Notes under the pieces: generated by a model
Databases searched by the model: none
What the model was told of the DNA's origin: nothing
What the model saw: only the letters and a program-made list of their open reading frames with translations
Translations under genes and position numbers: made by a program
Assembly: GCF_016744155.1 (NCBI RefSeq)
Contig: NZ_JADGEW010000002.1
Span: 1-64,000, forward strand
Direction of reading: 5' to 3'
From: Amphritea sp.
Lineage (GTDB): Bacteria > Pseudomonadota > Gammaproteobacteria > Pseudomonadales > Balneatricaceae
Length of the DNA: 64,000 bases
Part shown: one piece after another, positions 1-10,389 of the stretch
How the letters are laid out: every line of letters starts with the position of its first letter
Position numbering within the stretch: the first letter of the stretch is position 1

Positions 1-271
1 GAAGCGTGTTTTCCTGTTCAATAAAAATAGGATAGCGGTCTGCAAGCTGGCTGAACATATATTCACCAAACATTCCGATAACCTCTGAATCAGGCATTTC
101 CAGTTTGGTTGAAACAGCACTAACCAGCGCCATTAGGTCTTCGTCGGGATAGCTCTTTCCGGCGGTATAGATTCCGTCATTACTCAGCTCGGATAAAATA
201 TCGTTCCAGGCCTGCATGCCGCAACGTTGTTCAACCAGCTCTTCAAGAATATTAAAAATAACACCTTTCAT
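1..271 (-). CDS. hnoX: H-NOX (heme NO/O2-binding) domain protein, N-terminal part
   Basis: Reverse-strand frame open from an ATG at 269-271 to the window edge, giving about 90 residues; the rest lies outside. The start MKGVIFNILEELV and the later motif around YPDEDLMALV are the hallmark N-terminal helices of the H-NOX family, small cytoplasmic haem proteins that bind nitric oxide and control a partner histidine kinase or diguanylate cyclase. The haem-ligand histidine and the Y-S-R pyrophosphate-binding motif lie in the missing part and cannot be checked. It is divergent from three response-regulator genes, one a degenerate HD-GYP protein, as in Shewanella and Vibrio NO-signalling loci. A partner kinase would be expected to the left of the window. 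Identity is confident; function is inferred from the family. Confidence 0.88.
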   Translation of the reverse strand, partial: MKGVIFNILEELVEQRCGMQAWNDILSELSNDGIYTAGKSYPDEDLMALVSAVSTKLEMPDSEVIGMFGEYMFSQLADRYPIFIEQENTL

Positions 272-292
272 AAACTTCGCCCCAACATTTAA

Positions 293-335
293 TGTCACAA
301 ATGTCACAAATGTCACAAATGTCACATATGTCTTA
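293..335. repeat. 9-bp direct repeats of TGTCACA (putative regulator-binding array)
   Basis: TGTCACA occurs at 293, 302, 311 and 320, exactly every 9 bp, followed by a degenerate TGTCTTA at 329. Each heptamer is itself a TGT-N-ACA dyad. The array lies in the divergent promoter region, 22 bp upstream of the H-NOX start and 46 bp upstream of the HTH-REC start, so a protein bound here could control both directions. The same heptamer family (TGTAACA) reappears before the secreted-protein operon at 3678-3729. The binding protein is inferred, not shown. Confidence 0.8.
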
Positions 336-380
336 AATGTAGTCTATGCTGAGTCTAATGCAAATAAGAGATTGTGTATT

Positions 381-962
381 ATGAAAACTCTTACCAGCGG
401 AGATATCGCTAATTATCTAGATGTGACTCAGAGAACGGTTATCCGTTGGATTAATAGTGGGAAACTTAAAGGGTTTAAACTTCCTGGTCGGGGTAATAAT
501 CGAATTCAGACTGTTGATTTTATTGATTTTCTTAAACAAAACAAGATACCAATTCCTGATCAGTTGAAGGAAGAGTTCAGTCCAGTATCAACGAGTATCC
601 TACTGATTGACGATGAACCTGCAGTGCTTAGAGCGATGACCAGAGCATTGAAACCATTGCACCTGAATATACACAGTGCAGCAGATGGTTTTCATGCAGG
701 GCTGCTTTTGGAACAGTTAAATCCTGCCATGATTGTGCTGGACCTGAGCATGCCGGGTATGGATGGATTTGCTGTCATCAGGTATATCAGAGATGAGCAG
801 AAAAATTCTGATATTCGCATACTGGTAGTTTCAGCTTTGGCGGGTCAGCAGTTAGATCATGCTCTGGCGATAGGTGCTGATGCCGTTTTGTCTAAACCTT
901 TTTCTAATGCCCAGCTACGCAAAACTATCTCTGAATGGCAACATCCAACGGTTGAAACATAA
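381..962 (+). CDS. Response regulator: N-terminal excisionase/MerR-like HTH fused to REC
   Basis: 193 residues. Residues 1-55 form an excisionase-type winged HTH (GDIANYLDVTQRTVIRWINS, then a basic wing). Residues 72-185 are a receiver domain with the acidic pair in LLIDDE, phosphoacceptor Asp121 in VLDLSMPG and Lys172 in LSKPF. HTH before REC is the reverse of the common OmpR/NarL order. I chose the ATG at 381 because the longer frame upstream runs through the repeat array and has no family similarity. It is the first of three co-directional regulator genes, 12 bp before the next. The HTH is a good candidate for binding the 9-bp TGTCACA repeats, because MerR-like single-domain HTH proteins such as BldC bind direct repeats head to tail. 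DNA-binding target is inference. Confidence 0.85.
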   Translation: MKTLTSGDIANYLDVTQRTVIRWINSGKLKGFKLPGRGNNRIQTVDFIDFLKQNKIPIPDQLKEEFSPVSTSILLIDDEPAVLRAMTRALKPLHLNIHSAADGFHAGLLLEQLNPAMIVLDLSMPGMDGFAVIRYIRDEQKNSDIRILVVSALAGQQLDHALAIGADAVLSKPFSNAQLRKTISEWQHPTVET

Positions 963-974
963 AAGGAAGTATTT

Positions 975-2258
975 ATGGAATATACGGATCGTTCAATACT
1001 TTTGGTTGATGATGAGAAACAGGTACTTAATTCACTGAAGCGGTTACTCAGGCCTTTGCGCTGCCAGGTGTTAACAGCTGAATCCGCAACAGCGGGGTTG
1101 GAGCTGCTGGAACAGCAGACAGTGGATATTATTATCAGCGATATGCGGATGCCAGAAATCGGCGGAGAGGTTTTTTTACAGAAGGTGGCTGAGCGCTGGC
1201 CTGAGACTGAGCGAATTATAATTACTGGTTTTTCAGACACTAAGAGCACCATTGATGCAATTAATAAAGGCAAAGTAAGCCGCTTTCTGATGAAGCCCTG
1301 GCAGGATGAAGAAGTGCTTAAGGTGGTTTGTAAGGGATTTGAACTGGCCCAGTTAAGACAGCAAAACGCATCACTGCAACAGCTGACTGAGAAGAAAAAG
1401 AAAGAGTTGGAACAGCTTAATGCTGGGCTTGAAGATAAAGTTAAACTGCGCACCGAACAACTGGAAGCCAGTAATGCAAAACTGATTTCGAGCTATCGAG
1501 CCATGGTTCGAATGTTCTCTGCAATTACCGCTCGCCGTTTGGGGCAGGACAGTCATAAAGGGAGTCAGCTTAATAGCCTTTTAATTAGAACAGCAAGACT
1601 GACTCCTATAACGGGTAAAGCTTTGAAGCAGCTTTATTTTGCCTGGCAGCTTCGTAATATTGGCAAGCTTAGTTTTGCGGATGAACTGATTAATCAGGCT
1701 TATGTAACGCTTCCGGCTGAAAATCAACGGCAGTTTCAACAACACCCCCTCAGGGCACAGGCGGCTACAGTACTGGTTGCTCCTCTGTTTCCTGCGGGTG
1801 AAATTATCGTTCAGCATAAAGAGTATCTGGATGGCTCGGGTTACCCAAAGGGGCTTAAAGGGGAACAGATTAGCTACAGTGCGCAGTTGCTCTGCGTCGT
1901 TAATGACTATGTAGAGCTGATTTCAGGGCTCTATCAGAAACGCTCTTACAGTAGTCATGAAGCGCTTGCGTATTTAAAAGAGTTCGCCGCCGAACGATAC
2001 AATGCTGAAATTGTTGATCTCTTGTGTTCAGTTGTTGATCAGTTAGTTGCAGAAGGAGAGGTAGAGCATGAGCAATGCCTGGCGACCAGTGCGCTCATTT
2101 CTGGAATGGTGCTCAGCCGAGACCTGCTGACGATTCAAGATGTTCTGTTGCTGGGAGCCGGTCAGACGTTGGATAGCTCAGTGATTGCGCGTCTTTCAGA
2201 GATGGAGCAGAATCTTGAAGAGCAGTTTGAAGTGTTTGTACGGCAGGAGGCTAGTTAA
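975..2258 (+). CDS. Response regulator with degenerate HD-GYP domain (HnoD-like)
   Basis: 427 residues. REC domain at 1-120 with Asp56 in IIISDMRMP and Lys107 in FLMKPW, then a coiled-coil linker rich in Lys, Glu and Gln (130-170), then an HD-GYP-like domain (about 175-400). The metal-binding HD pair is lost: the usual HDxGK reads RNIGK at 227-231. DGSGYPKGLKGEQI is retained from 286. It is therefore probably not an active c-di-GMP phosphodiesterase. In Shewanella NO signalling, a REC/degenerate HD-GYP protein (HnoD) acts as an allosteric controller of an EAL enzyme; the nearby H-NOX gene makes the same role plausible here. RBS AAAGGAAG precedes the ATG. Stop and next start are adjacent (TAA-ATG), so translation is probably coupled. 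Confidence 0.87.
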   Translation: MEYTDRSILLVDDEKQVLNSLKRLLRPLRCQVLTAESATAGLELLEQQTVDIIISDMRMPEIGGEVFLQKVAERWPETERIIITGFSDTKSTIDAINKGKVSRFLMKPWQDEEVLKVVCKGFELAQLRQQNASLQQLTEKKKKELEQLNAGLEDKVKLRTEQLEASNAKLISSYRAMVRMFSAITARRLGQDSHKGSQLNSLLIRTARLTPITGKALKQLYFAWQLRNIGKLSFADELINQAYVTLPAENQRQFQQHPLRAQAATVLVAPLFPAGEIIVQHKEYLDGSGYPKGLKGEQISYSAQLLCVVNDYVELISGLYQKRSYSSHEALAYLKEFAAERYNAEIVDLLCSVVDQLVAEGEVEHEQCLATSALISGMVLSRDLLTIQDVLLLGAGQTLDSSVIARLSEMEQNLEEQFEVFVRQEAS

Positions 2259-3608
2259 ATGGCAGGGACAATACTATTGATTGATGATGATCCTGCTATT
2301 TTACGGGCTTTGAAACGATTACTGCGGCCGAGCGTTGAAAAACTGGGGTTAGTGATTTTTTCAACTTCAGAAGCGCAAGAAGCATTACAACTGGCGCAGC
2401 AGGAAAAACCAGAGCTCATAATATGTGATCAGCGGATGCCAGGGGTTCTCGGCACTGATCTGTTACGAAAAATATCAGATCTGGGTTTATCAGCGCAGCA
2501 CTATATCGTTAGTGGTTATGCCGATTTTGATCAGATTACAGAGGCGTTTAATCAAGGGGTTATCCATCAGTTTATTGCTAAGCCCTGGGATGAGCGGCAG
2601 CTGTTACACAGTATCGATCAATTGTTCAATATCCAGAAACTGAATAATCAATCATCGAATAGCGATGGCGTATTATTTCATGGCATGCTCAGCCAGGACC
2701 CCAAAATGCTGGAGATGTTTCAGCAGTTAACGCGTCTTTCTAATGCTAATGCGCCGATAAACCTGTCGGGTGAAACCGGCACAGGTAAAGAGTTGGCGGC
2801 ACAGGCAATTCATCTTGAAAGCCATCGAAGAGATAAGTCTTTTGTTGCTGTAAATTGTGCCAATTTTACCGATCAGATGATGGAAGCTGAATTGTTCGGA
2901 CACAAAAAAGGTGCCTTTACCGGAGCCGTAGAAGATCGGATCGGCTTGTTGCAGGAAGCCGATGGAGGTACTTTATTTTTTGATGAAGTGACAACATTAC
3001 CCCTGGCACTGCAGGCTAAGTTACTCAGGGTATTGCAGGAACGGCGCTTTCGACCGGTGGGCGGGAATCATGAGTATAGTTTTGATGTTCAGTTAATATC
3101 TGCATCATCGCAGTCTATTCAAGATGCGGTAGCTAGTGGGGCGTTCAGGCCTGATCTTCAGTATCGCCTTGAGGTTTTACCGGTGCATATTCCTCCGCTA
3201 CGCCAACGGCCGATCGATATTATTCCGCTGCTACGTTTCTTTCTGAATCAGCTGATGTTGCCTGAAGAGATAGGCTTTACTGAACGGTTGCAGAATCAGT
3301 TGAAAGGGTACTCATGGCCCGGCAACGTTCGTCAGTTATATAATGTGGCACAGTACCTTGCGGCTATGTGTGATAGGCGTGAGACATTAATTGATATAGA
3401 CCTGCTACCGCAGCATATCATCTGCATAGATTGTCCGGAACGGCAGGAAGAGTCTGCTGATCGCCTCAAACCATTGCAGCAGTTAGATGTGACTGAGCTG
3501 CAACAATTATTGGATAAACATCAGGGTAACCGTACAGCAACGGCTGAATCTCTTGGAATCAGCCGTATGACACTATGGCGTCGTATGAAAGAGCTGGCAG
3601 TTAATTGA
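2259..3608 (+). CDS. NtrC-family sigma-54-dependent response regulator
   Basis: 449 residues, complete. REC domain at 1-125 with phosphoacceptor Asp57 (ELIICDQRMP) and Lys108 (IAKPW). AAA+ sigma-54-interaction domain with Walker A GETGTGKE (171-178), the sigma-54 contact loop GAFTGA (218-223) and Walker B GGTLFFDE (236-243). C-terminal Fis-type HTH ending NRTATAESLGISRMTLWRRM. All functional motifs are intact, so it should be able to open sigma-54 promoters when phosphorylated. It directly precedes a secretion operon that has a near-consensus -24/-12 element and TGTAACA boxes, which are the natural candidate targets. In Shewanella the H-NOX network also ends in a DNA-binding response regulator (HnoC); orthology is not established here. 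Confidence 0.92.
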   Translation: MAGTILLIDDDPAILRALKRLLRPSVEKLGLVIFSTSEAQEALQLAQQEKPELIICDQRMPGVLGTDLLRKISDLGLSAQHYIVSGYADFDQITEAFNQGVIHQFIAKPWDERQLLHSIDQLFNIQKLNNQSSNSDGVLFHGMLSQDPKMLEMFQQLTRLSNANAPINLSGETGTGKELAAQAIHLESHRRDKSFVAVNCANFTDQMMEAELFGHKKGAFTGAVEDRIGLLQEADGGTLFFDEVTTLPLALQAKLLRVLQERRFRPVGGNHEYSFDVQLISASSQSIQDAVASGAFRPDLQYRLEVLPVHIPPLRQRPIDIIPLLRFFLNQLMLPEEIGFTERLQNQLKGYSWPGNVRQLYNVAQYLAAMCDRRETLIDIDLLPQHIICIDCPERQEESADRLKPLQQLDVTELQQLLDKHQGNRTATAESLGISRMTLWRRMKELAVN

Positions 3609-3677: not shown

Positions 3678-3729
3678 TGTAACAAATGCTGTAACAACTG
3701 TAACAGCTGATACGTCATCCTATGTAACA
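3678..3729. promoter_or_regulatory. TGTAACA boxes upstream of the secretion operon
   Basis: TGTAACA occurs at 3678, 3690, 3699 and 3723 (spacings 12, 9 and 24 bp). The boxes lie 64 to 115 bp upstream of the putative -24 element, a usual distance for an activator-binding region of a sigma-54 promoter. They match the TGTNACA pattern of the array at 293-335, suggesting a shared regulator. Confidence 0.65.
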
Positions 3730-3792
3730 ACCTTCGGCTACTAAAGTATCGTTATTTTGTAAGCTGTTGAAATATATTAATAAAAATTACTT

Positions 3793-3806
3793 GGCATGGG
3801 TTATGT
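3793..3806 (+). promoter_or_regulatory. Putative sigma-54 (-24/-12) promoter
   Basis: TTGGCATGGGTTATGT has the -24 GG at 3793-3794 and, after exactly 10 bases, GT at 3805-3806 in place of the consensus GC. The -24 part (TTGGCA) is near-perfect; the -12 part has one mismatch in the conserved dinucleotide. Expected transcription start is near 3817, leaving a leader of about 60 nt. A sigma-54 activator gene lies just upstream. Prediction only. Confidence 0.5.
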
Positions 3807-3877
3807 ATAGTCCTGTATGTAAAGTGCGACAGTCAGTTCGCTTTTTACAGCAAATTATAACTTAGGGGGATCTTCCC

Positions 3878-4327
3878 ATGAAAATGTTTAAAAAAGTTCT
3901 GCTCGTTACTGTAGTTTCTTCGCTGATTAGCGGCCATGCCTTAGCAGCAAATCTGGACAGTGATTCCGCTACAGTCAGTATGGCTGTTTCCCAGTATGCC
4001 GCTTTAACCGGGCTGGACGATTTTGTTCTGTCTACCACAGATACCGATGGTGCTGCTGGTGCTGTGTATTCGGGTACTGATTCTTTTAATCTGGAATCAA
4101 ATGATCAGGTACGAGTCAGCCTCTCAGGTGGTGATCTGAGTAACGGTACAGATTCTGTTTCTACCAGTTACTCGATGGATGATGGTGGTACTACTTTTGA
4201 TACCACTGCCGACTCAGTGCACAACGGAACCCACACCGTTGCAGCATCAGCAACACTTGGCGCTATTTCTGCTCAGAAAGCCGGCGCTTATTCTACGGTC
4301 ATTACTTTGACTGTCGCAGCGTTGTAA
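3878..4327 (+). CDS. Small secreted beta-rich protein, putative major surface subunit
   Basis: 149 residues with a clear Sec signal peptide (basic MKMFKK, hydrophobic core, cleavage after GHALA). The mature part is about 126 residues, rich in Ser, Thr, Asp and Gly, without Cys, and predicted beta-strand. It ends in an alternating hydrophobic strand, AGAYSTVITLTVAAL, resembling the C-terminal strand of pilin-like subunits that need a chaperone. The segment LTGLDDFVLSTTD through AISAQKAGAYS recurs in the N-terminal half of the LruC protein at 7010. RBS AGGGGG precedes the ATG. It is first in the operon and is followed by a GC hairpin, a common arrangement for a highly made structural subunit. 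No named family recognised; the subunit role is inferred from context. Confidence 0.8.
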   Translation: MKMFKKVLLVTVVSSLISGHALAANLDSDSATVSMAVSQYAALTGLDDFVLSTTDTDGAAGAVYSGTDSFNLESNDQVRVSLSGGDLSNGTDSVSTSYSMDDGGTTFDTTADSVHNGTHTVAASATLGAISAQKAGAYSTVITLTVAAL

Positions 4328-4331
4328 GAGT

Positions 4332-4346
4332 GGCCGCAAGGCGGCC
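4332..4346 (+). other. Intercistronic GC hairpin after the first secretion gene
   Basis: GGCCGC-AAG-GCGGCC is a perfect 6-bp stem beginning 4 bases after the stop codon, with no T-run after it. It may stabilise the upstream mRNA or partly attenuate transcription into the chaperone gene, so that the small protein is made in excess. Confidence 0.55.
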
Positions 4347-4413
4347 TTCGGGTCGCCACTACTATATTTCTAAATTATTGGTGTAATCAAATGTCGCTTG
4401 CAGGGGACTTAGC

Positions 4414-5556
4414 ATGAAATATTTCAGGGTACTACTGATTATATGGTTGTTCACTGCGCGAAGTTTTGCTGCAGAATTTGCTGTATCGCCGATGATGATA
4501 GAGCTGGAAAGTTCTCCCAGAGTAATTGAGAACTTCAGCTTTCAGGTATTTGGAAAAACCGCTGGCCAGGTGAAAATAACAGCTTGGGATATGGAGCAGC
4601 AGCTTACCGGTCATATGGGGTTTGTAGAGGTTAATGGTGATCAGGAAAAGCTTTCCAGTTGGGTTCAACTTGATAATCCAACATTTAGCGTGAAAAAAGA
4701 TGAGTCGGTGGAAGTGACCGGCAAAGTGACTATCCCGCCCTGGGCCAATGGTAGTTATCACACTGCCGTTATGGTTGAAGAAGCCCGTGCGCCGGATGCA
4801 AAAGGTGTCGTGGTGAATGTGCGTTATGCCGTCATTCTTAATATACGAGTGGCGGGGAAAAAGTCGCGGATCAATTCTAGCTTTAGTGATCTGCGTCTGA
4901 TTGAGCAGGAGGGTGAGTTTTATATTGCAGGTCGGTTTATTAACAATTCAAACCGGGATTATCGGCTGAGCTCAAAAGCACAATTACGCAGTGCTGATAA
5001 TAAACCACTGGGCAGGGTGTTACTTAAAACTCAGTCTGCCTGGCAGAGGGGTGATGAGGCTTCAAGGGTCTTTCCTGGTGCAGAAGTAGAAGTGTTCGGA
5101 CTGCTGACTAAACCGCTACCTGCTGGGAATTATCAGGCTATGGTGCGTAACCGGTTTGGTGGTCGACATCAGCCGACTTGGCGCAGCCCGGTTAACGTGA
5201 CAACTGAAATGGCTAAAGGTATGCAGGGTGATGCTAAACCTTTACCTGAAGGCGTCGCTCTATTACGTGATCCGGTACTTAAAGTACGACGTGGCGGATA
5301 TGCAACTGCGTCAGTGATGCTGGTTAATAATCAGGATCAGGCGGTTGAAATTCGCTTTCCAAAGAACGCGGACCAAGGTCTCCTGAGCGAGTACCGATTT
5401 ACCCCCGCAGTATTAAAGCTGGAGCCCAGTCAGCGGGGTATGGTGATTCTTAACCAAAAATACAAAGATGAGCGAGATGTACAGCCCGTTAAGTACTTGG
5501 CACAGGTAGTAGGAGGTGAACAGGTAGAGTGGCTTGAGATACCGACTCAGTTGTGA
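4414..5556 (+). CDS. PapD-like periplasmic chaperone, putative
   Basis: 380 residues with a signal peptide (cleavage near ARSFA-AEF). The mature start FAVSPMMIELE followed by alternating beta-strands resembles the first strand of PapD-like periplasmic chaperones. There seem to be two or three immunoglobulin-like domains: about 20-135, 140-250 and 270-380. The last contains LKLEPSQRGMV, like the strand that contacts subunits in such chaperones. It is longer than typical pilus chaperones (about 230 residues). RBS AGGGGA lies upstream of the ATG at 4414. Placed between a small beta subunit and a secretin, it probably keeps secreted subunits soluble in the periplasm. Family assignment rests on pattern, not a database match. 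Confidence 0.65.
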   Translation: MKYFRVLLIIWLFTARSFAAEFAVSPMMIELESSPRVIENFSFQVFGKTAGQVKITAWDMEQQLTGHMGFVEVNGDQEKLSSWVQLDNPTFSVKKDESVEVTGKVTIPPWANGSYHTAVMVEEARAPDAKGVVVNVRYAVILNIRVAGKKSRINSSFSDLRLIEQEGEFYIAGRFINNSNRDYRLSSKAQLRSADNKPLGRVLLKTQSAWQRGDEASRVFPGAEVEVFGLLTKPLPAGNYQAMVRNRFGGRHQPTWRSPVNVTTEMAKGMQGDAKPLPEGVALLRDPVLKVRRGGYATASVMLVNNQDQAVEIRFPKNADQGLLSEYRFTPAVLKLEPSQRGMVILNQKYKDERDVQPVKYLAQVVGGEQVEWLEIPTQL

Positions 5557-5563
5557 GGGTGCA

Positions 5564-6991
5564 ATGATGAACAGAATACAAAAGCATGTGTGGGGCTTGA
5601 TGATCTGCATATCGTTGTCCGGTTGTATTAACCAGGCCAGCTTACAGCAACACATTGAAGAAGCGCCTTCTGCTATGTCACAGGCTGAGTTACAAACCAG
5701 TCTTAGTCAACGCTTTCAGGATGAAGTGACTTCGGAGCAGAGAGCCGCGTATCGTATTAATCGCCAACAGCTCAGTCTGGAAAATAAACAGCAATCGACC
5801 GTTTCTGAGAGTCCAAGAGCCCAATGCGTACCGCATCCCCGGGGGATGAAGACAGGTCATATTCGTAAGTTAGATCTGGCTTTTTTCGAGATGCCCCTCC
5901 GTGATGCGCTGGTGGAAGTAAGCGTCATGAGTGGTGTGCCCGTCGTGATAGGTGAAAATGTTGATGGATTGATCACGGTAAATATTACCGGTGTCAGTTT
6001 TGATGATGCCCTTGAAGTTATGTTAAGCGGTGGAGATATCTCATTTCGTAAAATGGAGCGACATATTTTAGTGGGTAGTGCTCGGCCCGATTCGCCCGTA
6101 TTTCATAAGTTGGCGATCAGTTGTCACTATCGTCCAAGACACACGAAACCTGCTGATTTAGCCGTATCCCTGACCCCCTATTTTCAGCAGTTTATAAGTC
6201 TGCACAATGAAGCGGATTACCTGACGATAACCGCAACACCGGACACTCTGCGTAAAATTCGGAGTCATCTGGATAATTATGATCGTAAACCGCGCCAGCT
6301 ATTACTGGAAATGCATATTGTTGAAGTCAGTAGTGACGCAATGGAGCTGCTTGGCGTCGACTGGAACCGTTACGGACGTGACCCTAATACTTCGATGCTG
6401 CGTCGTTTGGGAACAGCTGAATGGGATGGTTACAAGCGAGAATCTGATCCCTCCGTTTCATCTCTGTTATCACTCGGAGCTTTGCCCATGCGGACGCTTT
6501 CAGATTCGTTGAACTTTCTTCGTACTCAGGGACAGGCGCAGGTTAAAGCGATGCCTAGTATTGTCACTCTGGATGGAAAAGAAGCGATATTTTCGTCTAT
6601 GAATACGGTATGGCTTCCATTTGTTAACGGTGGGGATACGGGCCGTCGACGAGAGTTGACCTATGGCGTGAATATGAAAGTAGTGCCTCGGATAGCGGCA
6701 GGTGGGCAGATAAAACTTGAAATTATTAATGCTTCAGTAAGTGATTTTACTGAGTCTGATCAGGGAGTACCTCGAATTATTTCTCATTCAATCTCTAATA
6801 CTGTGCATGTCCAGGACGGTGATTATTTGGTGCTGGGAGGGCTATTGCAGAAGAAATCCCGACGGGATGGTGAGGGGATTCCCGGGCTTAAAGATGCTCC
6901 GCTGGTAGGTAATCTGTTTGGCCAGAAACAACAGCTTCTTCAGGAGACAGAAGTCTTAATAATGATTCGGCCAAAAGTTTTGGGCAGTTAA
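5564..6991 (+). CDS. Lipoprotein secretin (outer-membrane channel), MshL/PilN-like
   Basis: 475 residues from the ATG at 5564, preceded by GAGGG; the ATG at 5567 is also possible. The N-terminus has a lipobox (ISLSGC), so the protein is probably an outer-membrane lipoprotein. After a variable region it has an STN/N0-like domain (FFEMPLRDALVEVSVMSGV), an N1-like domain ending near LDNYDRKP, then the secretin core starting RQLLLEMHIVEV. The signature end GDYLVLGGLLQKK ... IPGLKDAPLVGNLFG ... ETEVLIMIRPKVL is complete. Secretins form large gated outer-membrane rings for type II, III and IV machines, but no ATPase, inner-membrane platform, pilin peptidase or pilotin gene is visible nearby. Its start is 8 bp after the chaperone stop, so the two are co-translated. 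Identity high; partner system unknown. Confidence 0.9.
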   Translation: MMNRIQKHVWGLMICISLSGCINQASLQQHIEEAPSAMSQAELQTSLSQRFQDEVTSEQRAAYRINRQQLSLENKQQSTVSESPRAQCVPHPRGMKTGHIRKLDLAFFEMPLRDALVEVSVMSGVPVVIGENVDGLITVNITGVSFDDALEVMLSGGDISFRKMERHILVGSARPDSPVFHKLAISCHYRPRHTKPADLAVSLTPYFQQFISLHNEADYLTITATPDTLRKIRSHLDNYDRKPRQLLLEMHIVEVSSDAMELLGVDWNRYGRDPNTSMLRRLGTAEWDGYKRESDPSVSSLLSLGALPMRTLSDSLNFLRTQGQAQVKAMPSIVTLDGKEAIFSSMNTVWLPFVNGGDTGRRRELTYGVNMKVVPRIAAGGQIKLEIINASVSDFTESDQGVPRIISHSISNTVHVQDGDYLVLGGLLQKKSRRDGEGIPGLKDAPLVGNLFGQKQQLLQETEVLIMIRPKVLGS

Positions 6992-7009
6992 TCTCAGGAG
7001 GGTAGAGTG

Positions 7010-8335
7010 ATGAATAGTTCCAGAGTCTTTATAGTGCTGATGCTGGCCTCTTTAAATCTCTTCGCCGATGGAAGGGGAGGTGTTGCTAATAATCAAAATG
7101 TTGATGATCAGGCGTCGGTATGTATGACTATTGGACAGACTGCTAGCCTGACCGGTCTTGATGATTTCTTGCTTGCAACGACTGATATCTCAGGTCAGGC
7201 GGGAGCTAAATATACTGGAGGAGATCAGTTTTATCTCGAAAGTAACGGTCCTGTCAGGGTTGAGATACAGTCGGGAGCGTTGAAAAACAGCAACTCAGTA
7301 CTCATTCCTAAATACCTTTTTGATCTTCAGTCTCCGGTACTGAATACCGCTACAGAAGGTCATGGGGCAGAACACCGTATCGATGCAGAAGTTATGTTAG
7401 GTGCTATCTCAGCGCAGCAGGCGGGTGATTATAGTGGGGAATTGGTATTGGTCGTTGTGCCTCAGGTTGGGGGTGAGGGTGGCTGTGGCGGGTTTAGCGT
7501 TAGCTATCCTGGTATCGCAACTTATGATACCGGCAGTAGTACTGGTCAGTGGGCGACGCTGGCGTTTGAGGATCTGTATCCTAATCCAGGAGATGCCGAT
7601 TATAACGATATGGTGCTTCAGTTTCGGGTGCAAGAAAACTATAACGCACAGCAGCAGCTGGAAACTATCCACCTGGATTTTATTCCGCTAGCGCGGGGGG
7701 CTGGTTATAACCATAGGCTCTATTTATCCCTGGATGGCAATCTGGATAGTCGTAATGCAACATATAATAGTACTCCCGCCGTAGTGGGTGATGCTTCGGT
7801 CAAGGTTACTTACAACAATCTTGACTCAGGGGCTTCGCAAATCTCTTATTACGATCAGTCAGACGATGTACTGGTATTCCATAATACTCGGTCAGCGTTA
7901 TCTGGCTTTGCTAATGTCTATGATAACGGTGAGCTGACGGAGCCCCGTGTAATGACATCAATCGATATTAGTCTTACAAACCCTGAACTAAACCCTTCAT
8001 CACAAGCGCTGGCCGGAGGGGAGTTTAATTATCGGCCTTTCCTTTATGTGATGAATACCCGGCTGGATATTGACCTGTTTGAGGTGAACCCTTATGACGG
8101 CATGATTGATCAGAATGGCTATCCATTTGGCTTAATGGTTCCCGTTGATTGGCGCTGGCCTTTGGAGGGGGTTGGTATCGATACCGCGTATCCCTACTTC
8201 TCGGAGTATCGGTCCTGGCTGGCTGGTGAAACAGATAATATTTCTGATCAAGCGTTGCAGTGGTACAACTATCCATTATCTGGAGCGGAAGGAAATCTAA
8301 TCTGGGGAGGGGGGAGTTTTACCGAAGGCTTATAA
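7010..8335 (+). CDS. LruC-domain secreted protein with N-terminal subunit-like domain
   Basis: 441 residues from the ATG at 7010 (RBS AGGAGGG, 7-base gap; the GTG at 7007 is too close). Short signal peptide (VLMLASLNLFADG). Residues 35-150 are paralogous to the 149-residue protein at 3878: LTGLDDFLLATTD, AGAKYTGGDQFYLESN, LGAISAQQAGDYS. A LruC domain follows, with the acidic motif FEDLYPNPGDADYNDMVL (a likely calcium-binding loop) and a beta-sandwich C-terminal region. LruC-domain proteins are extracellular and poorly understood. As last gene of the operon it may be a tip or minor subunit that joins the small protein through the shared domain. Domain call is good; role is inference. Confidence 0.85.
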   Translation: MNSSRVFIVLMLASLNLFADGRGGVANNQNVDDQASVCMTIGQTASLTGLDDFLLATTDISGQAGAKYTGGDQFYLESNGPVRVEIQSGALKNSNSVLIPKYLFDLQSPVLNTATEGHGAEHRIDAEVMLGAISAQQAGDYSGELVLVVVPQVGGEGGCGGFSVSYPGIATYDTGSSTGQWATLAFEDLYPNPGDADYNDMVLQFRVQENYNAQQQLETIHLDFIPLARGAGYNHRLYLSLDGNLDSRNATYNSTPAVVGDASVKVTYNNLDSGASQISYYDQSDDVLVFHNTRSALSGFANVYDNGELTEPRVMTSIDISLTNPELNPSSQALAGGEFNYRPFLYVMNTRLDIDLFEVNPYDGMIDQNGYPFGLMVPVDWRWPLEGVGIDTAYPYFSEYRSWLAGETDNISDQALQWYNYPLSGAEGNLIWGGGSFTEGL

Positions 8336-8408: not shown

Positions 8409-9527
8409 TTATTCAGCGATTGCCTGTTCTGCGGGCTGGAAGTCGTACCCAAGATCATGGGCTACCGCTTCATAGGTAACTTTACCTCGATGTACATTGA
8501 GTCCGTTACGAAGGTGTGGATCATCCTGCAGGGCTTGTCGATAACCCTTATTTGCCAGGGCAAGTGCGAAAGGTAAAGTCGCATTGGTTAGAGCAAAAGT
8601 AGAGGTACGGGCGACGCCGCCGGGCATATTAGCAACGCAGTAGTGAATTACTCCATCTACTTCGTAAGTTGGTTCTTGGTGAGTCGTTGCATGGGATGTT
8701 TCAAAGCAGCCGCCCTGATCGATAGCAACGTCTACCAGTACCGAGCCGTTTTTCATCTTACTCAGCATTGCACGGGTAACCAGTTTAGGTGCAGCAGCGC
8801 CTGGAATCAGAACCGCCCCGATCACCAAATCGGAGTTCACAACTTCCTGCTCAACAGATTCAGCGTTTGAGTACAGCGTCTTCAGTTGTGGACCGTACTG
8901 GGCATCCAGATCTTTAAGACGTGGCAGAGAGCGATCTATAATCGTGACATCAGCCCCCAGCCCCATCGCCATTCGTGCAGCGTTAATGCCAACGACACCA
9001 CCACCAATAACGGTTACTTTAGCTGGGGCTACACCCGGTACACCGCCCAGCAGAACACCCAGACCGCCCTGCGCTTTTTCAAGTGCATGAGCACCTGCCT
9101 GAATGGCCATACGACCAGCAACTTCACTCATGGGAGCCAGCAGAGGAAGGCCACGGTTAGCATCGGTTACGGTTTCGTAAGCAACAGCGACACAATCAGA
9201 TTCAACCAGCAGCTTAGTTTGTGCTGGGTCCGGAGCCAGGTGTAGGTAAGTAAACAGCAATTGACCAGGGCGCAGCATCTTGCACTCATTAGGCTGAGGC
9301 TCTTTTACTTTAATAATCATATCAGCAGCAGCGAAGATCTCCTCTGGAGTGTCGATTAGTTTCGCGCCGGCCGCTTCATATTGATCATTTGTCAGACCAA
9401 TCGAAGTACCGCCATCACGCTGAACGATAACTTCATGGCCATTTTCAATCAGTTCACGGACACCTGCGGGTGTCATACCGATACGATATTCGTGATTCTT
9501 AATCTCTTTAGGGATACCAATCAACAT
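8409..9527 (-). CDS. ald: Alanine dehydrogenase
   Basis: 372 residues, the normal length for the family. It catalyses the reversible NAD-dependent deamination of L-alanine to pyruvate and ammonia in the cytoplasm. It starts [20 protein letters not shown], which carries the conserved pyruvate-binding Arg and Lys region; the Rossmann motif [18 protein letters not shown] and the substrate loop [14 protein letters not shown] are intact. RBS AGGAG lies 7 bp upstream of the start. It is a single-gene unit facing a terminator shared with the LruC gene. The upstream region carries an imperfect inverted repeat, but no regulator gene is adjacent; Lrp-type control is common for this gene and an Lrp gene lies about 50 kb away. 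Very secure call. Confidence 0.97.
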
Positions 9528-9870
9528 AACGGTTCTCCTGCTGAATGTTTTATTGTTAGTGGATTCAATTACACTAACACTGGTATTGAATTGTTATCAT
9601 TCGAACTTATGTTAATTATCAATAATATGTTCTAATAATTTTATAAAAAATAGTGTTTTGATGCTGCGTATATGGTCTGTAAATTGCTAATTTCGGCAGT
9701 GCAGCAAAGAAAAATTGATAATTATCATATCTGTTAAGTATTGTTTGTTTTTTGTACAAGGCCAGTTTTATCGGTTATCACCGAGAGATCTTGGATCTTA
9801 TCTAACAGGACGATTGTTGGGAAAAGGGGGTTGCGTCGAAGAGCTAAAACCCTATAATAGCCCTCACTTT
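9528..9870. other. Gene-free stretch upstream of ald and the tRNA gene
   Basis: AT-rich, no credible coding frame. It should hold the leftward ald promoter and the rightward tRNA promoter. An imperfect inverted repeat GAACTTATG (9603-9611) / AATATGTTC (9624-9632) with a 12-base spacer, 76 to 105 bp upstream of the ald start, is a candidate operator. Confidence 0.5.
9831..9858 (+). promoter_or_regulatory. Sigma-70 promoter of the tRNA-Val gene
   Basis: -35 TTGCGT (9831-9836) and a perfect -10 TATAAT (9853-9858) with a 16-bp spacer. The mature tRNA starts 13 bases downstream. Between them, AGCCCTCA is a GC-rich discriminator, typical of stable-RNA promoters. Confidence 0.85.
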
Positions 9871-9947
9871 AGGACTATAGCTCAGTTGGTTAGAGCACTT
9901 GCTCGACATGCAAGGGGTCGTCAGTTCGAATCTGACTAGTCCTACCA
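9871..9947 (+). tRNA. tRNA-Val (anticodon GAC)
   Basis: 77 nt including encoded CCA. Acceptor AGGACTA/TAGTCCT, D-arm GCTC/GAGC, anticodon stem CTTGC/GCAAG with loop TCGACAT (anticodon GAC), five-base variable loop, T-arm GTCAG-TTCGAAT-CTGAC, discriminator A. All stems pair perfectly. The odd point is C at position 33, where almost all elongator tRNAs have U; E. coli tRNA-Val(GAC) has TTGACAT. Confidence 0.95.
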
Positions 9948-10232
9948 GATACAAAAAAGCCTCGCGAATGCGAGGCTTTTTGCTATCTGGTTTAGGCAGA
10001 TGAGAACTGAAAGTTCGAGCCGAGCGTAGCGAGACAACATTGGAGCTTGCGACGATGGCCCGCAGGGGAATAATCTGACTAGTCCTACCAAATTTAAAAA
10101 GCCTCGCGAATGCGGGGCTTTTTGCTATCTGGTTCAGGTAGATGAGAACTGAAAGTTCGAGCCGAGCGTAGCGAGACAACATTGGAGCTTGCGGCGATGG
10201 CCCGCAGGGGAATAATCTGACTAGTCCTACCA
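9931..10232 (+). repeat. Tandem repeat carrying tRNA-Val 3'-end fragments
   Basis: The 17-base tRNA 3' end TCTGACTAGTCCTACCA occurs at 9931 (inside the tRNA), 10074 and 10216, giving two tandem units of 143 and 142 bp. Each unit has the terminator-like hairpin (GCCTCGCGAATGC...), a stretch with GAACTGAAAGTTCGAGCC and GAGCGTAGCGAGACAACA, then the tRNA 3' fragment. The 5' two-thirds of the tRNA is absent from both copies. The units are over 90 percent identical by eye. They contain reverse-strand open frames, but these look like artefacts of the repeat. Confidence 0.88.
9959..9981 (+). terminator. Terminator after tRNA-Val
   Basis: GCCTCGC-GAAT-GCGAGGC stem followed by TTTTT, 12 bases after the CCA end. 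A diverged copy (right arm GCGGGGC) recurs in the second repeat unit near 10100. Confidence 0.92.
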
Positions 10233-10274
10233 AAATTTATGCTGATCTCTTTATAAAGGCCTCAGTAGCAAAAA

Positions 10275-10300
10275 GCCGAATCATTTGATTCGGCTTTTTT
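10275..10300 (+). terminator. Strong terminator after the tRNA repeat array
   Basis: GCCGAATCA-TT-TGATTCGGC followed by six T and preceded by an A-run, so it can act on both strands; it faces the leftward LysR gene that ends at 10390. Confidence 0.88.
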
Positions 10301-10389
10301 GTTTTTGGGATCTATTCAGCCGATTTTTACATCTTTCTAACTCACTTTCTCATCAAAGGGTAAAATGTTTAGGAAAGGCGATCGATTCA

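Follow-up and report, generated by a model that had tools for sequence, protein, structure and literature searches.

The window analysed here, a stretch of 64,000 nt, is the start of contig C5 in a 4.15-Mb Amphritea genome (G000). Near its beginning lies a four-gene operon (positions 3878-8335) for a small beta protein (P0001), a putative periplasmic chaperone (P0002), a secretin (P0003) and a larger protein with a LruC domain (P0004). As a first-pass annotation of this DNA had stated, all four genes lie on one strand with short gaps between them. Three of its gene assignments held as well: the signal peptide of P0001 is recognizable by eye; P0003 has an LSGC lipobox (by eye) and belongs to the Secretin family (PF00263, 118.8 bits, 2.3e-34, cut-off 27.5); and P0004 matches TIGR04456 with 98.7 bits (cut-off 36) and DUF4842 with 56.2 bits (cut-off 22). 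The 'PapD-like' label given to P0002 has no direct backing in the sequence: the protein matches no chaperone family in Pfam or NCBIfam, and what speaks for the label is weak and comes through intermediate relatives, described below. The σ54-type response regulator directly upstream and the TGTAACA repeats that follow it are also part of this unit, and we refer to the whole as the cassette (Table 1).

Table 1. Features of the cassette and its upstream regulatory block in the window, and of the upstream region at two related Amphritea loci (L004, L010)
Feature	Position	Strand	Match or remark
HTH_17-domain response regulator of the upstream regulatory block	216-962	+	PF00072 2.9e-22; PF12728 1.2e-9
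HD-domain response regulator (by eye, HD-GYP type)	975-2258	+	HD_5 1.6e-26; Response_reg 4.3e-22
NtrC-type σ54 activator (REC-AAA-Fis helix-turn-helix), adjoins the cassette genes	2259-3608	+	Sigma54_activat 2.3e-61; Response_reg 4.6e-21; HTH_8 2.6e-11
Four TGTAACA repeats (starts 3678, 3690, 3699, 3723), likely an activator-binding array	3678-3729	+	
σ54 -24/-12-like site TGGCATGGGTTATGTA	3792-3807	+	9/12 consensus positions; ATG 86 bases downstream
P0001, small beta subunit, 149 residues	3878-4327	+	signal peptide by eye; no Pfam family
P0002, immunoglobulin (Ig)-type putative periplasmic chaperone, 380 residues	4414-5556	+	signal peptide by eye
P0003, lipoprotein secretin, 474 residues	5567-6991	+	lipobox, STN-like N0, secretin domain
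P0004, large subunit, 441 residues, exported	7010-8335	+	P0001-like domain, then LruC/DUF4842 domain
P0001-like domain within P0004	7010-7468	+	two Cys near the domain ends, the second just outside
H-NOX gene	L004 1295-1861	-	HNOB 6.8e-42
Kinase-type ATPase (HATPase_c) gene beside H-NOX	L004 333-1280	-	
H-NOX gene	L010 899-1471	-	by likeness only

P0001 contains neither cysteine nor tryptophan. The first ~150 residues of P0004 resemble it (62 of 149 columns identical, 42%, E 2e-29), and this second copy of the P0001 domain goes beyond what the first-pass annotation had described. Because the two proteins share this domain, we read them as one small subunit and one large subunit tipped with the LruC domain. 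A pair of cysteines brackets the subunit domain (7010-7490 in the window) in all five LruC-fusion proteins examined, and none of the six short subunits examined carries these or any other cysteine. This pattern suggests that the Cys-bracketed LruC protein may be a locked end-piece beside exchangeable short subunits. The subunit of the window is better conserved than its chaperone when compared with G1173 (66 and 35% identity, respectively), G121 (61 and 40%) and G508 (70 and 55%), and less so with G1319 (46 and 39%), a pattern expected if the subunit packs its surface into a polymer or coat. By hhalign, no link emerged between the subunit profile and the putative subunits of G056 (8.9%), G982 (1.3%) or Deinococcus (0.6%), or E. 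coli subunits (5.0% at most); for G056, G982 and Deinococcus, the role of subunit is therefore assigned from gene position alone. A match of P0001 to CFA/I CfaB in the PDB (E 3.8) was non-significant and was discounted.

Chaperone genes of this kind were found in nine genomes, including three near-identical Amphritea genomes, with identities down to ~25%; this count excludes two remote matches, G485 and G982. At the locus of an Amphritea metagenome-assembled genome, the chaperone is 98% identical to P0002, and its 12,121-base contig recurs as G004:C121. The chaperone search was positive in 4 of 95 relatives, in 3 of 390 genomes from the order, in 3 of 398 from the phylum (G000 and the remote G485 and G982), 1 of 4 in the order of G508 (G508 itself) and 3 of 200 in the family of G270 (G270 included). 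Searches with the secretin in the class (E up to 1e-60) and with the subunit returned 2 of 229 and 2 of 369 genomes, respectively. G000 itself is counted in the sets of 95, 390, 398, 229 and 369 genomes. The cassette is patchy even within the genus, where 3 of 17 searched genomes, G000 included, have it. A viral collection held no relative of the chaperone or the secretin, and plasmids held no relative of P0002 at E up to 0.001; for the secretin, 915 plasmid records were matched, all below 60% identity.

The order activator, subunit, chaperone, secretin, LruC protein is found in the window and in G004, G015, G508 and G1173. In G270, where the contig starts in the tail of the subunit gene, chaperone, secretin and LruC protein follow one another. 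G056 has the activator, two subunit-like genes, the chaperone and the secretin, with no LruC protein seen, and G1319 is rearranged, the secretin preceding activator, subunit and chaperone, with linkage retained and no LruC protein in the stretches read. G121 has only subunit and chaperone; these genes (L015 3181-4872) have the same kind of promoter array and, by eye, hisF- and hisA-like genes on either side. Thus, the conserved synteny that had been proposed as a check of the first-pass annotation is indeed present: the secretin is found near the chaperone at eight of nine loci and the LruC protein at six, and the activator is adjacent at seven (G270 is cut by the contig end, and G121 lacks it). 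Activator domains were scanned in the window and G056, the others being assigned by 42-90% identity or near-identity. In G056, the secretin is still linked although identity has dropped to 22% for the chaperone and 34% for the secretin. Because the arrangement recurs in other families and in different gene order, it exceeds chance. Between the window and G508, identities are 70% for the subunit, 55% for the chaperone, 60% for the secretin, 59% for the LruC protein and 57% for the activator, compared with 40% for PilQ; between the window and G270 they are 35% (chaperone), 41% (secretin) and 44% (LruC protein), compared with 44% for PilQ. Since the cassette identity with G508 (55-70%) exceeds that of PilQ, the comparison suggests that the whole set, including its regulator, has moved between lineages.

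P0003 falls short of the cut-offs of three known secretin families: it scores 124.7 bits for the type II secretion system (T2SS) secretin GspD (TIGR02517, cut-off 351.35), 118.4 bits for MshL of the mannose-sensitive haemagglutinin (MSHA) pilus (TIGR02519, cut-off 250.2) and 127.5 bits for the type IVa pilus secretin PilQ (TIGR02515, cut-off 284.35). Its STN match (6.5e-5, 23.1 bits) is below the cut-off of 28.4. All seven cassette secretins examined have two cysteines around the N0 domain and, judged by eye, a plausible lipobox. The G000 genome encodes three secretins in total, the other two being a GspD (TIGR02517, 476.7 bits) and a PilQ (TIGR02515, 449.2 bits). Upstream of its T2SS secretin gene (L011 6-3732), G000 encodes a subtilase-like protein and another protein with similar C-terminal tandem repeats, which are possible T2SS cargo (by eye).

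We compared 24 secretins from nine genomes in a tree, comprising every secretin found in seven searched genomes plus the cassette secretins of G1173 and G1319; the long secretins in it lack their N-terminal part owing to the extracted flank. The eight cassette secretins form a single clade (support 100/100), separate from the PilQ, GspD and MshL-like rows, 'MshL-like' meaning that the best NCBIfam match of the available fragments is MshL, under its cut-off. The first-pass annotation would have been undermined by clustering of P0003 with a T2SS or MSHA secretin of the same genome; both GspD and PilQ of G000 are placed in other clades. The nearest neighbour of the cassette clade is unstable. In an earlier tree of 22 rows, 6 of them from cassettes, it was a pair of MshL-like secretins (87/88), and in the 24-row tree it is, with weak support, a very divergent secretin of G004 (72/83); a grouping of the cassette clade with the two MshL-like rows, which involves long branches, is not rejected (approximately unbiased [AU] test, p 0.36). 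The divergent protein is the fourth secretin of G004 (C72, 14667-15155, in a 521-residue frame) and stands outside the PilQ and GspD clades; contig C72 also carries a T2SSE-type match at 9510-10340.

The absence of an usher or platform gene beside the cassette, another claim of the first-pass annotation, was supported. With an E limit of 0.01, seven E. coli usher queries matched nothing in the window or in eight stretches from relatives (seven loci), the rest of the genome not being searched for ushers. One PilB-type and one PilC-type query were equally blank in the same stretches. Inspection by eye of the open reading frame lists of the loci showed no pseudopilin, GspC-like or platform gene, and none of the six T2SSE-family matches in G000 is on contig C5.

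What, then, is P0002? A profile search of the PDB returned three chance matches only (E 0.39 or worse). When a profile built from six cassette chaperones was compared by hhalign, it aligned along 231 columns with three proteins (99%, E 2.7e-18); two of these are encoded on Deinococcus plasmids and the third in G982. The genes for these proteins are flanked by smaller exported proteins and by a protein of 786-1090 residues that looks barrel-like by eye and carries SdrD_B/carboxypeptidase-like domains at its C-terminus. By analogy, this layout may be likened to chaperone-usher operons, the very large proteins taking the 'usher slot' by position and size; those of Deinococcus and G982 align with each other over a 77-column C-terminal domain only (54.8%). 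The Deinococcus/G982 set matches E. coli EcpB/EcpE at 64% (E 6.5e-5). Against 50 E. coli proteins, hand-chosen from seven regions and mostly from fimbrial operons, a broad profile placed all eight fimbrial chaperones, which are mutually related, in the top ten (ranks 1-4, 6-8 and 10), with a best single probability of 21%. With the Deinococcus/G982 profile, the ranks were 1, 2, 5, 8, 10, 13, 18 and 32. One of the Deinococcus relatives passes the Pfam cut-offs for NPCBM_assoc and CARDB, which we take to be Ig-like families. The Ig fold that the first-pass annotation had presupposed thus receives indirect backing: from these comparisons, an Ig fold is likely for P0002 and a PapD-type identity plausible.

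Two further candidates were set aside. Foldseek with a model of the chaperone N-domain returned folds of the Ig V type, which we did not count (lowest E 3.3e-3, all above 0.001; template modelling score under 0.45), and matches of the G508 chaperone to NCBIfam toxin models (E 0.007-0.07, 12-16 bits with cut-offs of at least 600) were taken as chance. The operons around the remote relatives (L099 4869-10554 and L100 4947-10520 on the Deinococcus plasmids; L043 5302-9915, minus strand) combine genes for small exported proteins and for the protein of 786-1090 residues with one for a chaperone-like protein of Ig type, and are perhaps a divergent chaperone-usher-like class. L044 (1550-3934, minus strand) encodes a 531-residue tandem-Ig protein related to the chaperone (96% by hhalign) beside a beta protein that matches the pilin UpsA weakly (E 8e-4, far under the cut-off).

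The upstream region of the subunit gene was also compared. Four TGTAACA repeats each are present in the window, G004 and G015, and G508, G121 and G1173 each have at least three repeats of this or a variant form; two variants precede the second subunit gene of G056, and there are none at its first subunit gene or in G1319. Of the paired TGTAACA repeats genome-wide, the cassette accounts for 3 of 3 in G000 and in G004, 2 of 2 in G121, 3 of 4 in G015 and 1 of 2 in G508. A σ54-like site is found 70-87 bases upstream of the ATG in seven loci, matching 12 of 12 consensus positions in G1173, 10 in G508, G121 and G1319, and 8-9 in the three Amphritea. By comparison with shuffled sequences, the site is significant in G508, G121, G1319 and G1173 (fractions of 0.008 or less) and non-significant by itself in the window (0.11), G015 (0.12) and G004 (0.59). 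The two best such sites in G056 (9/12 each), located 121 and 214 bases ahead of the ATG, are non-significant as well (0.08 and 0.07).

Further upstream, both Amphritea loci whose contigs extend far enough carry a gene for a haem-NO-binding (H-NOX) protein on the opposite strand, beyond the three response-regulator genes in front of the cassette; the contig of the window begins too late to show this region. HD- or EAL-domain response regulators are present near the cassette in all four loci scanned (window, G270, G1173 and G508). In Shewanella, H-NOX controls biofilm through such regulators. This regulatory context fits a function in surface attachment.

Taken together, we tentatively favour, at a little under an even chance, a self-contained, σ54-regulated chaperone-secretin export cassette that makes a fibre, a coat, or an adhesive or WxL-like surface complex. 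P0001 and P0004 would cross the inner membrane by Sec and be held or capped in the periplasm by the tandem-Ig chaperone P0002, probably by donation of a strand to an incomplete sandwich. The capped subunits would be delivered to the N0 domain of the P0003 ring and leave through this dedicated, self-piloting lipoprotein secretin, which would take the place of the usher without any need for an ATPase. Outside, they may polymerise into a thin fibre or form a coat or adhesive complex, with P0004 as its putative tip or anchor. The main support comes from the conserved linkage, the common subunit domain, the separate secretin clade, the promoter array, whose pairs are unique within the genome, and the remote chaperone relatives in operons for other exported proteins and a very large one.

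Several observations weigh against this explanation. To our knowledge, no secretin acts alone as an usher. Direct hhalign comparison of the cassette-chaperone profile gave 1.7% with six FimC-type and 0.4% with two Ecp-type chaperones; this test of PapD kinship has little power, because the two known classes match each other at only 2.8%. The Deinococcus/G982 set reached only 1.65% with the six FimC-type chaperones, and the very large proteins of those operons did not match usher profiles. Used on its own, the cassette profile ranked the eight E. coli chaperones 5, 8, 18, 20, 22, 24, 31 and 38 of 50. AlphaFold models from two-row alignments were poor (predicted local distance difference test score [pLDDT] of 42 for the whole chaperone and 52 for its N-domain). 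The one TGTAACA pair of G056 is located elsewhere than at the cassette, as are all five of G270, where the promoter is off the contig and a reversed-pattern control gave 23 matches. The LruC protein is missing at three of nine loci, and no cassette-type secretin was found in G121, whether at the locus or genome-wide (the best match, 97.4 bits, lies in a 646-residue frame; genome 96% complete). Finally, T2SSE-type ATPases are encoded elsewhere in the genome in all seven carriers tested, and a platform could be borrowed.

This last point leads to a hybrid explanation, which we consider unlikely: the liposecretin would be an alternative outer ring on the type IV pilus or T2SS platform of the genome, and the export of chaperoned proteins would be powered by the ATPase. 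Besides the ATPases, every one of the seven carriers tested encodes one or more secretins that do not belong to the cassette, G000 encodes a bona fide GspD and PilQ, and a sister position of an MshL-like secretin is compatible with the AU test. But no platform component was found at the loci by eye or with the PilB and PilC queries, and no second locus in G000, G004 or G121 is marked by paired TGTAACA repeats. G056 argues in the same direction. Apart from the cassette secretin, its genome (98% complete) contains just one other, PilQ-like and 417 residues long (best match TIGR02515, under the cut-off), together with a single T2SSE ATPase of PilB/HofB type; there is no T2SS secretin. A Tad pilus was rejected for G056, since ATPase and platform protein match PilB/HofB- and HofC-type models best (under their cut-offs) and the other secretin is PilQ-like. 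Therefore, a T2SS platform is excluded there, but a type IV pilus platform is not.

Rather improbable, in our view, is a diderm counterpart of the Gram-positive WxL clusters, in which the Ig partner would stay with the complex as scaffold or anchor instead of being recycled, the secretin would merely release the complex, and no fibre would form. The layout of small protein, large protein and Ig partner is that of WxL clusters (PMC10599100), and WxLIP_PGBD appears below threshold in the remote relatives (E 0.26 in G982 and 0.016 in one Deinococcus protein). Yet P0001, being devoid of tryptophan, has no WxL motif, PF06030 is unmatched in the six cassette chaperones tested (E up to 1), and P0002 has no C-terminal membrane helix by eye. 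We give very little credence to the idea that the secretin is simply a neighbour with another job, such as uptake or export of other cargo, while subunit and chaperone use a different route. G121, which keeps subunit and chaperone without such a secretin, speaks for it, but the linkage persists at eight of nine loci despite large divergence and rearrangement.

Read as a chaperone-secretin export system, the cassette shares features with several known machineries. Like chaperone-usher pili of the alternate ECP/CFA-I-like type, it has Sec-exported beta subunits, an Ig-type periplasmic partner, a larger tip-like protein and, through the Deinococcus/G982 relatives, a remote profile link to EcpB/EcpE. 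Unlike them, it has a secretin and no usher alongside, its chaperone has no PapD match in Pfam and no link to FimC-type chaperones, and its large protein carries the subunit domain N-terminally, whereas chaperone-usher tip adhesins carry it at the C-terminus. With MshL, PilQ and GspD, the cassette secretin shares the PF00263 domain, an STN-like N0 domain and the lipoprotein N-terminus, which HxcQ and MshL also have; it differs by its low scores (118-128 bits, with cut-offs of 250-351), its own clade and the lack of any pilin, ATPase or platform gene found alongside. The WxL clusters also combine a small protein, a large protein with a common domain and an Ig partner, and AlphaFold predicts that a hairpin of this partner completes the WxL sandwich (PMC10599100). 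The cassette differs in lacking the WxL motif and PF06030 membership, and in its diderm host and additional secretin. Filamentous phage pIV is likewise a short secretin adopted by a non-pilus system, and the G270 secretin shares 24% identity with f1 gene IV (E 6e-13); no phage genes were seen beside the cassette, and its cargo would be beta subunits. Secretins have been co-opted repeatedly, namely in the type III secretion system, Tad and filamentous phages (PMC6668835). In the open-access literature, the titles and abstract beginnings among the matches listed mention no secretin paired with a chaperone-subunit set, subscription papers and preprints being outside this scope.

The pairing of a chaperone with a secretin brings together parts not usually found in one system, in a compact, rare yet conserved gene set. 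It is possible, and we put this forward with some reserve, that the cassette represents an outer-membrane pathway of its own, in which a secretin was co-opted in place of an usher, export proceeds free of an ATPase by subunit folding, the WxL clusters have a diderm counterpart, and control is exerted by σ54 and possibly by nitric oxide and cyclic di-GMP. If this is true, a secretin can export folded, chaperoned subunits without a dedicated motor, and the minimal needs of a secretin would become testable. The compact cassette could also serve as a simple tool for surface display.

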